A DNA stretch of 64,000 bases from Deltaproteobacteria bacterium (lineage in GTDB: Bacteria > Myxococcota_A > Polyangia > Polyangiales > JADJMO01). Of the stretch, positions 24,722 through 32,377 are shown one piece after another (position 1 is the first letter of the stretch; each line of letters starts with the position of its first letter). A model generated the notes under the pieces. That model did not search any database. It was not told the DNA's origin and worked only from the letters and a program-made list of their open reading frames with translations. The stretch is taken from assembly GCA_016182965.1 (NCBI GenBank), contig JACPFM010000104.1, forward strand, positions 1 to 64,000. The letters run 5' to 3'. The position numbers and the translations under genes were made by a program.

Positions 24722-25192
24722 ATGGCGGACGACGACAGGAAAGAGGGGCTCCCGCGCAGCGAAGCGAGCACCTCGGCGTACCCGCTCAGCCGGCTCTCCG
24801 CGCGGCACGATCTGGTCGACGTCGCGCGCGAGATCCAGGCGGCCGACGCGACGCTCGGCACGGTGACCGTCGCCAAGCTGCGCGTCATCGCCGAGCAGAT
24901 CCGCGCGCTGCAGGCGCAGGCCGCCCGCGTCCTCGACGAGGCGAAGCACGCCGGCGAGCTGCACCGCGCCGCGTGCAGCTTCAAGCGCCGCGCCGGGCAC
25001 GTCTATCACCTGTACCGCAAGCAGGCCGACGCCTCCCTGTACTGGTCGATGCTCTCGCCCGAGGAGTGGGGCACGCCGCCCGACGAGTTCCAGGGGAGCT
25101 TCCGGCTCGAGAACGACATGACCTGGACGCCGGTCGATCAGGCCGAGCAGCGCGACACGATCGAGGAGCCGCTCCGCAAGCTGCTCCGCTGA
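24722..25192 (+). CDS. DUF2452-like cytoplasmic protein
   Basis: A 156-residue soluble protein that I recognise as the DUF2452 type. A helical part is built on VAREIQAADATLGTVTVAKLRVIAEQIRALQ and AARVLDEAK. It is followed by the characteristic CSFKRRAGHVYHLYRKQ and SMLSPEEWG with conserved aromatic residues, and by an acidic and basic tail. The family occurs in bacteria and eukaryotes with no known activity. There is no signal peptide and no transmembrane segment. Coding statistics are typical of the window. Confidence 0.82.
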   Translation: MADDDRKEGLPRSEASTSAYPLSRLSARHDLVDVAREIQAADATLGTVTVAKLRVIAEQIRALQAQAARVLDEAKHAGELHRAACSFKRRAGHVYHLYRKQADASLYWSMLSPEEWGTPPDEFQGSFRLENDMTWTPVDQAEQRDTIEEPLRKLLR

Positions 25193-25280
25193 AGGGCGCG
25201 CCCGTGAGAGGCGATTTCCCCGTCGACGCTTCTTGATTGGAGCCGGACGCGAGCCAAGAGACAATCGTGGTGATCCCACG

Positions 25281-28200
25281 ATGCGCGAATCCCATGCAGC
25301 CCTCGCGTCCTCGACGTCGTCTCCATCCGACAGGCGCGCGCAGGTCGAGGTCGTCCTCGGTCCCAAGCAAGCCCTCCCGCGCGTGTTCTCGCCGCTGTTG
25401 CCGCCGCGCGCGGTGCGAGCCGCGCTGCACGGGCTCCCCGGTGAAGGGATCGAGTCGCTCCGAGCGTCGTTCTCGGTCGGACTCGTGTCGGGCGAGCATC
25501 GCATTCCCCTGTCGTCTCGCGCCCACGTTCGGGTGAGCGTCGAGCCGGGCACGCAGGCCCGCGGGGAGATCGTCGCGAGCCCGGCCGGCGCCGATCCGCG
25601 CACCATCGTGAAGAACCTCGCGATCGAGCTCTCCGACCCGCTCGTGTTCCACGACATCCTCCCGGTGCTCCTCGAGCTCCCGATGCTGTTCGAGGATCAC
25701 GCGTTCGGCCGCGTGCTCGCGCGCCTGCTCGGGCTCGACCTCGAGTGGGCCGGGGCCACCGTGGTCGAGCGCCTCGAGGCCGCGCGCGCCGCCGCCGGCA
25801 AGGCCGCGCGCGTGGCGCTCGAGCGCATCGACGCACGCCCGCGCGCGCACAAGGGCGTCTGGCTCCTCGAGCTCCACTTCACGGGGACGGCCTACATCGG
25901 CGGGACCTACCCGTTCCGATTCGAGGGATGGCGCCTGCCGCACGTGATCATCCCGGCCGTCCACGCGCACCTGGCGCGGCTGCTCTCCGAGGCGCCCTTG
26001 GCGTCGGCCGAGCTGCGCACGACAGCGGCCGTCGATCTGCTCGACGCGGTCCTCGGGCTCCTCGGTGAGGCGAGCGGGCGCCTCGAGGCGCGCGCTCGGA
26101 TCCCCGAGACGGCCTTGCGCGCGCTGCTCCACGACCGCAGCGATCTGCGCGCCCACGTGCGCGTCGAGGGGCCGCTCGACGTCACGTGCGCGTTCTCGGC
26201 GCGCGCGTCGGACGATCGGCTCGAGCTGTCGATGAACGAGCTGTCGCTGGAGAGCGACGGCCGGCGGCTCGGCGCCGAGGCGAGGGTCTCTCTCGCTCGA
26301 AGCGAGCGCCCTGGCCGCGCTAGCGAGCGCCCTGGCGGCCTCGCGGCGACGGACGGCACGGACGGTCCGCGGATGGCCGAGGCGCTGCGCCACGTCGCGC
26401 GGAACGGGACGGTGCCGCCCGGATGGGTGTTCGACGCCAACGCGAAGATCGCGCCCGACTCCTGTCTGTCGAAGCTGATCGTCGAGGGCGACATCCGTCA
26501 CGATCTGCTGCTCGGCGGGTTCGACGCGAAGACCGTCCTCGAAGACCTCCAGCTGAGCGGAGCGGCCGACCTCCGGGTCGACGCCGACGGCTCGCCGTCG
26601 ATCGTGACCGATCTCGAGTTCGGCTGCAGGGTGACCACCCTCGACCCGACCTCGCTGTCCGACGGCATCACGCGGGTCGGCGTGACCCGCAGCAGCGCCA
26701 CGCTCCGCGGCCGGCTGCGTGCCGACACCGACACCCCGCTCGACGTGTCGATCCACGGCGAGGCCACCGCGTGCCTCGAGGGCAGGGCGACGGTCACGCC
26801 GATCCCCGAGCTCTCCATCGAGACCGGCGAGGTGACGTTCACGTTCGACACGTCGGCGCGGTTCGATGTCGTCGCACGTGTGCGACGCGCGGATGGAGGC
26901 GCACGTGTGCGACGCGCGGACGGTCCGGACGCGGGCGATCACCACACGCTCGACGGCTCCGGCTCGACCTTCGCCGCGACCGTGCACCACGGCGAGCTGC
27001 GCCTCAGCGGGCGCACCCTCGAGCTGCCGAGCGACACCGAGGTCTCGTTCGCGATGCGCGAGGGGGTGATCGACGCCTCGGGGCTCGGGCGCAGCGTGGC
27101 CGAGGTCGCCTGGGACATGAAGGGCCGCTCGCCGGTGCTCTCGTGGGGTGGTCCGCGCGCGGGCGCGACGGAAACGCGCAGCACCGAGCTGTTCGTCGAG
27201 TCGCTCCGCAAGCGCGCGTTCGTGGTGTCGCTCGCGGCGACCGGCGGCCTCACCGTGACAGGCGAGGGTGGCGACAAGTACGGTCCGCGGTTCTTCAACG
27301 CGCTCCTCAACCCGGGCGCCGACCTCGACGCGCTCGTCGAGGTGCTCGACGACGACGAGTCGATCGAGCGGATCCTCGCCGCGCTCGAGCTCTTCTCCGA
27401 GGGCGCCCGCGATCTCGGCGGCAAGGTGCGCGACCTCGCGAAGAAGGCGCGCAGCGCGCTCGACGCCGAGGGCGTGAAGAAGCCTGGAGACGGCGTCCCC
27501 GCCCCGGTGCTCGCGCGCGTGCTCTCGCGGATCCTCTGCGGAACGCCCGAGCTCGAGGCGCGCATCCTCCCGCTCGTCCTCCGCGTGGTCGCCGGCGACG
27601 GCTTGGACGTCCTCGCGACCAAGCACCTCCTCGACGAGCAGCTCGGCGATCACCCCTATGCCTTCGAGCTCGATCGCGGGCTCCGTTGGATCGCCCACCT
27701 GCTCTCGCCCACCGATCCCCTCGCGCCCCTCGAGCCGGTCGCGCTCGGCGCCGTCGAGCTCGCCGACGAACATCGGAAGAGCCTCGTCGGCATCCCCTCG
27801 GCGCGGGAGATCTACGAGGGCATCGCGGCTGGCTACCCGGCGGAGAACGCGGGCGAGGACTTCCCTGCGCGCGTCGCCTGGGTCGCTCCCTACCTCCAGC
27901 TCGAGCAGCTCGACTGGATCCTCCCGCGCATCGGCGCGTGGCCGCGCGAGGCGCGTCGGCGCATCCTCCACGCCCGCGAGCTCAAGCGCCGCGTGCGCAT
28001 GATCTCCGAGAGCTACGGCGGCGTGGCGTTCTTCCCCCAGGCGATCGCGATCACGTTCTTCCTCGGCGAGACGTTGGCCATGGGCGGCGCGTGGACCCCT
28101 CCGCCTTCCGCGGCCGACGACCCGGCGCTCGATCGCCTCCCGATCGGCTCGCTGTTCGGTCCCGAGGACGTCGCCGTCCTGCTGCAAGCGAGCCTCGCAT

Positions 28201-29897
28201 CTCCGCTGCAGGGGCGCACGGAGCAGCTCAACGAGCGCATGCTGCTCGATCACACGTTCGCGCAGCCGCCTGCGTTCCTCCTGGGCGTCCTGGTGGAGCT
28301 CTCCGGCAGGAGCTCGTACGTGCTCGCTGGCGTGCTCAACGCGCTGCTCAACAACGATCAAGACTGCGTCCGCGCGCCGCTCGATCTCGTGGGCGAGATC
28401 TCGCGACGGCTCGGCTTCGAGCTCCCGCGCCTGTCGGACTACATCGCCGGCGGACGCTGGGCGAAGCTCAGCTACTTCGAGGCGCTCGACCGCGCCGCAC
28501 AGCAGGTGCTCGCGGCCGCCGACCCGTGGCTCGCGACCAAGTGCCACTTGCAGATCCGGCGGCCGCCCCCGAGCGAGAGCCCGGTCGTCCCGGCCGTCGC
28601 CGTCGATCCCGCGCCGGAGCGCGCCGTCGAGCGCGCCGACCACACCCGCGATCCCGCCGACTACGCGCGGGCCTTCGACGTGTGCAAGACGCTGCTGCGC
28701 CGCGACCGGCAGGCCTTCCAGCGTCCGTGGATGCGCGACTTCTGGCTCCGCAACTACGAGGCGCTGATGGTCCACTCCGTCGTGCGCAGCGTGCAGGGGG
28801 ACGTCGACGCGAGCCGCCGCTGGCTCGAGCGCCGCACGGCGCGCGCGATCCCCGAGCGAGAGCAGGAGCTGCTCGAGCTGGTCGTCGACTACCTCTACTA
28901 CCGCCCCGAGGATCGCGCCCGACTGAAGGCCGATCCGCTCGTGCGCCTGCTCATCGATCCCCCCGACGCGCGGTACGACTTCACGGTGGTCAGCGCGATG
29001 GGCGTCGTCACCGAGGGCGCGCGGGGTCGCGAGCTCGAGGAGACCTACCGCCGGCTCGAGGAGCGACGCGGCATCAAGGTCGTGCGCGCCGACACAGCCA
29101 CCGGACGCTCGCTCGAGTACAACGCGGTGCAGGTCGAAGACGCGGTGCGGAGCGTCGAAGGGCCGTGGGGGATCATCGGCTACAGCCAGGGGTGCGCCAA
29201 CGCGCTCGCGGCCGAGGCGCGCATGCTCGGCGGCACGCCCGAGCAGCAGGAGCTCGTCTCGCGGCTGCGCTGCCGGAACCTCCTGTTCGGCGCCTTCAAC
29301 GGCTCGGCGCACGGGACCTGCTCGAACGCCAAGTTCCTCCGCGGCATCGTCGAAGGCGAGCAGTTCCTCAAGCACTACCAGGGCGTCCTCTCCAGGGAGG
29401 CCGTCACCCACGCGCAGCGCGCGCTGCGCATGATGTTCGACTCGCGTCCCTTCGTGCACGGCACGCTCGGCTCGCTGTCGCTCGCGCACGAGGGCGTGCG
29501 GTTCCTCCAGCGAGAAGGGCAGTTCAAGCCCGACGTCCCCACGTCAACGATCCGCGGCGTGGTCGAACCGGAGACGCTCCCCGAGGAGCTCGAGTGGATG
29601 AGCAACCTGCTCACCCGTCAGATCGAGAGCCCCGAGCACGACACCCAGGTGAGCGCCCACGAGGCGGTGGGCCATCCCGTGTGGGTGCAGAACGAACAGG
29701 CCGAGGTGCTGCGGCGCTGCTCGCTCGACGGCGCCATCCAGCGCTGCTGCCACTGGTCGCCGCTCCGCTACGAGACCGAGTTCCTCGAGACCGAGCGCGA
29801 TCGCCGCCTCGCCATCTACGACATCCCGAAGGACCGCCACGTGTTCCCGTGGATCGACGTCAACGCGCGGTTCGGGATCATCGACGTGCGGGGGTGA
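25281..29897 (+). CDS. 1538-residue protein of unknown function with C-terminal GYSQG hydrolase motif
   Basis: No family recognised. Residues about 20-500 alternate short strands in long amphipathic ladders (LELSMNELSLESDGRRL; LQLSGAADLRVDADGS; ATLRGRLRADTDTPLDVSIHG), a style like AsmA/TamB repeats (inference). No signal peptide is visible. The middle (about 680-1180) is helical with conserved-looking text such as LFGPEDVAVLLQASLASPLQG. The last 300 residues include WGIIGYSQGCANALAAEAR with Ser1302 in a GxSxG elbow, so a serine-hydrolase-like domain is likely. His candidates are in HGTC and SAHEAVGHPVW. A 20-bp direct repeat with 27-bp period (26874-26893 and 26901-26920) doubles ARVRRADG. 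Start chosen at the ATG of 25281; one 48 nt upstream is possible. It is convergent with the kinase gene (14 bp apart). Confidence 0.8.
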   Translation: MRESHAALASSTSSPSDRRAQVEVVLGPKQALPRVFSPLLPPRAVRAALHGLPGEGIESLRASFSVGLVSGEHRIPLSSRAHVRVSVEPGTQARGEIVASPAGADPRTIVKNLAIELSDPLVFHDILPVLLELPMLFEDHAFGRVLARLLGLDLEWAGATVVERLEAARAAAGKAARVALERIDARPRAHKGVWLLELHFTGTAYIGGTYPFRFEGWRLPHVIIPAVHAHLARLLSEAPLASAELRTTAAVDLLDAVLGLLGEASGRLEARARIPETALRALLHDRSDLRAHVRVEGPLDVTCAFSARASDDRLELSMNELSLESDGRRLGAEARVSLARSERPGRASERPGGLAATDGTDGPRMAEALRHVARNGTVPPGWVFDANAKIAPDSCLSKLIVEGDIRHDLLLGGFDAKTVLEDLQLSGAADLRVDADGSPSIVTDLEFGCRVTTLDPTSLSDGITRVGVTRSSATLRGRLRADTDTPLDVSIHGEATACLEGRATVTPIPELSIETGEVTFTFDTSARFDVVARVRRADGGARVRRADGPDAGDHHTLDGSGSTFAATVHHGELRLSGRTLELPSDTEVSFAMREGVIDASGLGRSVAEVAWDMKGRSPVLSWGGPRAGATETRSTELFVESLRKRAFVVSLAATGGLTVTGEGGDKYGPRFFNALLNPGADLDALVEVLDDDESIERILAALELFSEGARDLGGKVRDLAKKARSALDAEGVKKPGDGVPAPVLARVLSRILCGTPELEARILPLVLRVVAGDGLDVLATKHLLDEQLGDHPYAFELDRGLRWIAHLLSPTDPLAPLEPVALGAVELADEHRKSLVGIPSAREIYEGIAAGYPAENAGEDFPARVAWVAPYLQLEQLDWILPRIGAWPREARRRILHARELKRRVRMISESYGGVAFFPQAIAITFFLGETLAMGGAWTPPPSAADDPALDRLPIGSLFGPEDVAVLLQASLASPLQGRTEQLNERMLLDHTFAQPPAFLLGVLVELSGRSSYVLAGVLNALLNNDQDCVRAPLDLVGEISRRLGFELPRLSDYIAGGRWAKLSYFEALDRAAQQVLAAADPWLATKCHLQIRRPPPSESPVVPAVAVDPAPERAVERADHTRDPADYARAFDVCKTLLRRDRQAFQRPWMRDFWLRNYEALMVHSVVRSVQGDVDASRRWLERRTARAIPEREQELLELVVDYLYYRPEDRARLKADPLVRLLIDPPDARYDFTVVSAMGVVTEGARGRELEETYRRLEERRGIKVVRADTATGRSLEYNAVQVEDAVRSVEGPWGIIGYSQGCANALAAEARMLGGTPEQQELVSRLRCRNLLFGAFNGSAHGTCSNAKFLRGIVEGEQFLKHYQGVLSREAVTHAQRALRMMFDSRPFVHGTLGSLSLAHEGVRFLQREGQFKPDVPTSTIRGVVEPETLPEELEWMSNLLTRQIESPEHDTQVSAHEAVGHPVWVQNEQAEVLRRCSLDGAIQRCCHWSPLRYETEFLETERDRRLAIYDIPKDRHVFPWIDVNARFGIIDVRG

Positions 29898-29911: not shown

Positions 29912-32377
<2,466 letters not shown>

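Follow-up and report, generated by a model that had tools for sequence, protein, structure and literature searches.

What kind of protein is encoded by a long gene whose product resembles no catalogued family, and what might such a protein do in the cell? This question is raised by the frame at positions 25281-29897 (+ strand) in a stretch of 64,000 nucleotides (here referred to as the window) from the Deltaproteobacteria bacterium assembly GCA_016182965.1. The predicted product has 1538 residues and matched 0 families in Pfam and NCBIfam at E<=10 and 0 in PADLOC at E<=1, so that the earlier note on this DNA, which recognised no family for most of the protein's length, is borne out. Computation yielded the gene, its family, an architecture of three modules (a curved β-sheet or "ladder", a helical middle and an α/β hydrolase), the amphipathy of the ladder strands, the hydrolase fold, invariant candidates for a catalytic triad, and no signal peptide. 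On this basis an intracellular role in binding and cleaving fatty or polymeric substrates is possible for the ladder-hydrolase protein.

The frame starts with an ATG at 25281 and ends with a stop codon at 29895-29897. The coordinates and residue numbering reported previously are exact, with the GYSQG motif occupying residues 1300-1304 and its serine at 1302. GC contents at the three codon positions are 74/49/93 %, which is the coding pattern expected at 71 % GC. An antisense ORF (24981-29489) overlaps the gene and represents the usual high-GC shadow, since homology sits on the + frame. A TTG codon lies in frame at 25233, 16 codons 5' of the ATG. Full-length relatives, together with dN/dS values of 0.10-0.23 in all three modules (the four pairs with unsaturated dS, of five computed), identify 25281-29897 as a real gene, beyond chance, and the selection acting on each of the three modules is purifying.

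The protein is a member of a family that is conserved over its full length of ~1550 residues, in which complete frames comprise about 1500-1670 residues and some frames are longer, being open upstream without a stop. Relatives aligning over the full length, with 29-44 % identity in tblastn segments, are found in other families of the phylum. The window's own genome carries one gene copy. With the single protein as query, matches were obtained in 3 of 96 genomes of the order, in 2 of 5 genomes of the family (own genome counted), and in 27 of 235 genomes of the phylum. A profile of the hydrolase domain (alignment A4) matched 35 of 377 phylum genomes, with 33 strong matches (E<=1e-140) and 2 weak ones, and a profile of the N-terminal half (A2) matched 32 of 282, 31 strongly and 1 weakly; judged from both ends of the protein, the family is present in roughly one tenth of the sampled phylum genomes. 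Among the 31 genomes with a strong A2 match, 30 also matched A4 strongly, and the exception (G231) holds a 673-residue frame beginning at base 7 of its contig. Ladder and hydrolase were thus found only together in the strong matches, which share one fixed three-module architecture throughout, save for pieces on short contigs. The earlier reading of the protein had anticipated the ladder and the hydrolase core, both of which the structure predictions bear out, and had missed the helical middle and the fixed three-module family. Searching Pfam with 22 full-length members singly gave scattered lone matches (best E 0.026), and the only hydrolase family among them was FSH1 (E 0.19, one member), none exceeding the curated cut-off.

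Beyond the phylum sample, an alignment-based pattern scan of 84,980 bacterial and archaeal species genomes, which requires an exact peptide pattern and may miss members, retrieved 48 relatives, all in assemblies titled as MAGs or metagenome bins. A single-sequence scan of the genome collection confirmed no relative, and a plasmid search gave no match to the family. When the 13 GTDB-family labels are mapped onto a tree built from 34 hydrolase domains, 12 changes suffice, the minimum possible. Forcing the window's order-mates together was rejected (p-AU 0.0032), as was forcing its class-mates together (p-AU 0.00035); these groups are taxonomic, although they were tested after the tree had been seen. 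The gene thus appears to be inherited stably inside families and to have been transferred or lost between orders and between classes, and the conflict of the gene tree with order and class suggests transfer between classes of the phylum. Two otherwise full-length members are split by a single in-frame TAG (L051:3551-3553 and L062:6155-6157), for which sequencing error, decay or a real split are all possible.

The C-terminal part of the protein is the most readily interpreted. An AlphaFold2 model of residues 662-1538, built from a 50-row family alignment, is confident (pLDDT 91.7, pTM 0.93), and in it residues 1111-1538 (28611..29894, + strand) form an α/β hydrolase module with leading helices. 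Foldseek returned 11 PDB matches to this half at E<=0.001, with lipases and esterases at the head. For the best of these, the metagenomic carboxylesterase/lipase MGS0156 (5d8m; Foldseek E 8.3e-6), a structure comparison gave Z 26.6 and rmsd 3.7 with 305 of 332 residues aligned; next came lipases from several different families (Z 17.5-20.7). The 50 best fold matches in the list consist of lipases, esterases, thioesterases and similar hydrolases, a few other fold relatives, and a ribosomal chain. Searches by sequence against solved structures found no significant match for the family protein; the A4 profile matched 6 PDB sequences at E<=10, with no lipase and not 5d8m among them, and the kinship with hydrolases therefore rests on fold. 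Judged by the modelled fold, the GxSxG elbow and the Ser-acid-His order, residues 1111-1538 are assigned to the α/β hydrolase superfamily. The serine-hydrolase elbow that had previously been placed at Ser1302 is accordingly found within a confidently modelled hydrolase core.

The nucleophile elbow GYSQG with Ser1302 lies at 29178..29192, the proposed catalytic acid Asp1454 in a D-x-Q-V motif at 29640..29642, and the proposed catalytic base His1491 in an (H)HW motif at 29751..29753, all on the + strand. In an alignment of 51 rows, fragments included, Ser1302 is conserved in 50/50, Asp1454 in 49/49 and His1491 in 48/48 non-gap rows, the serine count partly reflecting selection because the 48 collection loci were picked partly by the pattern GYSQGCAN. 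A fairer test of conservation is therefore the BLAST-found set A1, in which none of the 22 rows, 21 of them BLAST-found homologues, departs from Ser1302 or Asp1454. Ser1302-Asp1454-His1491, which occur in catalytic order, are proposed as the candidate catalytic triad.

The hydrolase domain also occurs without a ladder, as indicated by short relatives that keep its motifs. The two weak A4 matches are frames of ~500-560 residues whose N-terminal region contains a hydrophobic stretch and a cysteine, and both retain the GYSQG, D-x-Q-V and NH[WF] motifs; one of them reaches lipase C12 at E 0.021 and MGS0156 (5d8m) at E 0.026. These stand-alone relatives are located at L108:1655-3157 (-) and L109:1112-2788 (+) and have no Pfam match over the cut-off. 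They are apparently exported lipoproteins.

For the N-terminal part, residues 1-790 were modelled by AlphaFold2 in a separate job from residues 662-1538, with a 40-row family alignment (pLDDT 85.1, pTM 0.77). Residues 21-651 (25341..27233, + strand) form a curved β-sheet of ~25 long strands, the longest of 26 residues, with few helices interspersed; the β ladder expected by the earlier note is thus present in the model. The two faces of each strand differ in mean hydrophobicity by 2.33, as compared with 1.08 +/- 0.15 and a maximum of 1.63 in 2000 within-strand shuffles; one side of the sheet is therefore hydrophobic and the other polar. Within the ladder, two short in-frame near-duplications are found at window positions 26301-26339 and 26880-26924 (SERPGRASERPGG and VRRADGGARVRRADG, respectively), at positions that are present in few relatives and are insertions built of micro-repeats. 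The ladder is followed by an all-helical middle module (residues ~669-1115; 27285..28625, + strand), which appears in the models of both halves, and after which the hydrolase begins in the model of 662-1538.

Foldseek gave no PDB match to the N-terminal half at E<=0.001, its barrel matches having a probability of at most 0.18 and a TM of about 0.1, and the best entry in a viral structure library had a probability of 0.15 and a TM of 0.06. The best VIA match, a weak one, is the outer-membrane channel CymA (Z 14.0, rmsd 6.9, 230 residues), followed by further barrels and, lower down, the middle region of ApoB100 (Z 9.9, rmsd 11.5). The barrel matches are taken as indicating a curved antiparallel sheet, with no kinship implied. 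Structures of RBG, VPS13 and AsmA proteins are absent from the fold matches listed for this half, from which a difference in fold does not follow. Membership in the AsmA/TamB group, tried by profile, was rejected, as the A2 alignment reached a probability of 7.1 % against TamB and 2.7 % against AsmA in hhalign (alignments from related genomes); TamB against AsmA reached 99.6 %, but since these two alignments cover overlapping stretches of one set of proteins, this is no fair positive control. None of the 22 members has an AsmA/TamB match in Pfam. Of the "lipid-transport-like ladder" described earlier, the β ladder thus stands in the model, and kinship with lipid-transport proteins is not supported by these hhalign values or by the fold matches examined, among which no RBG structure appears. 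A ladder that carries lipid may nevertheless be envisaged from the model.

The protein is probably cytoplasmic, as none of the 22 full-length members has a signal peptide, i.e., a hydrophobic N-terminal segment, in agreement with what had been stated for the window's protein. Averaged over 15 residues, hydropathy within the first 60 residues peaks at 1.30 across the 22 members, whereas the two lipoprotein relatives reach 2.6 and 1.91.

Gene neighbourhoods offer no common theme. In the window, a DUF2452 gene (24722-25192; Pfam E 9.5e-50) lies directly upstream on the same strand, and a kinase-TPR gene (29912-32377) lies downstream and convergent with 25281-29897. In a search of 93 loci, four window neighbours (DUF2452, a 100-residue ORF, kinase-TPR and FG-GAP) recurred at none of the 92 other loci; the only match was at L099, which is the window's own genome. 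The neighbours at ~20 loci, part of whose genes were called with a custom codon-usage script, are diverse, e.g., carbamoyl-phosphate synthase, an SNF2 helicase, a glycosidase, a repressor and a radical SAM protein, among others. As no partner is common to the ~20 loci scanned, an operon or functional neighbourhood for the family was rejected. Nor is a lipid-metabolism neighbour conserved at these loci. A gene for a three-domain aminopeptidase P (M24) stands beside 6 of the 43 loci with 2 kb or more of flanking sequence on one side (L071:8104-9894, L073:4298-6052, L077:7751-9523, L078:13431-15200, L083:13056-15065 and L086:3231-4991), where it lies ~30 bases or less from the ladder-hydrolase gene or overlaps it. 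It is found upstream on the same strand three times, downstream on the same strand twice, and downstream on the opposite strand once. Its recurrence in different arrangements may point to a functional link; a search of the window's genome for PF16189, the family of the aminopeptidase's N-terminal domain, gave no match.

The reading preferred here, to which we would give an even chance, is that the protein acts inside the cell as a serine hydrolase of lipase fold, with a ladder that binds a hydrophobic acyl substrate or feeds it to the Ser-Asp-His centre. In such an enzyme, the curved sheet at the N-terminus, hydrophobic on one face and polar on the other, would bind the hydrophobic acyl substrate or the surface of a lipid or polymer body, the helical middle would hold the ladder-bound substrate beside the active site, and the C-terminal domain would cleave, or transfer, an acyl ester via Ser1302-Asp1454-His1491. 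Catalysis, an ester substrate, a ladder acting as conduit or holder, and a cytoplasmic site of action are what we infer from the computed features. Rather doubtful is a cytosolic lipid-conduit enzyme, in which an anchor-free, bridge-like hydrophobic groove would slide lipid from a membrane or storage body into the fused lipase-fold site, the N-terminal fold then being outside the known RBG families. A role as depolymerase or granule-surface esterase inside the cell, cutting polyhydroxyalkanoate (PHA), another polyester, or wax-ester/triacylglycerol bodies, with sheet and helices serving as a granule-binding platform and not as a conduit, is also unlikely. The missing signal peptide and the amphipathic sheet would suit such an enzyme, as would its nearest fold, MGS0156, which is reported to degrade polylactate and polycaprolactone (PMC5341072 and PMC11236915). 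However, polyester activity is common among lipases and is a poor guide to the natural substrate, no PHA gene is present among the neighbours examined, and there is no PHA-depolymerase match in Pfam.

The α/β hydrolase folds include acyltransferases, and the ladder could present an acceptor that takes the acyl chain in place of water at the same Ser-Asp-His centre. Such an acyltransferase is judged quite improbable, the top 50 fold matches listed being mostly lipases, esterases, thioesterases and similar hydrolases. The VIA ranking, which is headed by porins, an autotransporter barrel and TonB receptors, and the lipoprotein-like appearance of the two short hydrolase relatives could be taken to mean that the protein is exported and that the ladder is an outer-membrane β-barrel carrying the enzyme, as in autotransporters. 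This is very unlikely, as no hydrophobic N-terminal segment exists in 22/22 members, the ladder is N-terminal and broken by helices, and Foldseek gives barrels only the low scores cited above. The least probable explanation, credited with a very slim chance indeed, is that the protein serves in defence or antagonism as an effector, degrading membrane lipid once triggered. A patchy distribution and the cross-class conflict of the gene tree would fit an effector, but the gene is single-copy and strongly constrained in all domains, PADLOC gave no match, and no defence genes adjoin it in the loci read, save for one SNF2 helicase.

The modules of the intracellular hydrolase preferred here, a lipase fold and a curved amphipathic sheet, are known in kind. 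Their fixed combination without an export signal was not encountered in Pfam, NCBIfam or PADLOC, and no description of the family came up in the literature searched on GYSQG in Myxococcota, lipid droplets, bridge-like lipid transfer and vitellogenin/MTP. Lipid-transfer proteins of the bridge-like or groove type are described as conduits with a passive role, and the known bacterial ones are membrane-anchored in the envelope. To our knowledge, no fused machine for lipid transfer and cleavage is known in any organism. If the proposed mechanism is true, a soluble ladder with a lipase-fold site would allow substrate channelling from groove to catalytic centre to be tested directly within a single polypeptide. 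As a minimum, an unnamed and strongly constrained family of ~1550 residues, found here in metagenome bins only, has been delineated, and its catalytic domain merits a family model.

Several known systems resemble single modules of this protein. Vitellogenin, ApoB and MTP combine wide β-sheets with a helical domain, and the middle region of ApoB100 is among the weak VIA matches; in contrast to the ladder family, they are animal secretory proteins and contain no hydrolase. True bacterial lipases (I.1/I.2, I.5 and staphylococcal) share the fold, at the Z-scores given above, and the GxSxG elbow. In these lipases the acid precedes the histidine, as in the ladder-hydrolase. They differ in being secreted proteins of 300-400 residues without N-terminal modules, and they show no sequence match. 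Closest in fold is MGS0156, which is described as having lipase and polyester-degrading activity, including on long-chain lipid, and as belonging to no known hydrolase family (PMC5341072), with a triad of Ser232, Asp350 and His373 (PMC11236915). Both proteins thus stand outside the Pfam hydrolase families and have the same Ser-Asp-His order within an α/β hydrolase fold (305/332 residues), whereas identity is 14 % and the 332-residue 5d8m chain has neither a β-ladder nor a long helical module. With AsmA/TamB and the eukaryotic VPS13/BLTP lipid-transfer proteins (RBG type), the family shares a long sheet of amphipathic strands, and with TamB also a similar total length; two genuine TamB-type frames, of ~1530 and 1711 residues, are present in the window's genome. 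Unlike these proteins, the ladder family carries no membrane anchor, and its ladder is followed by an enzyme.
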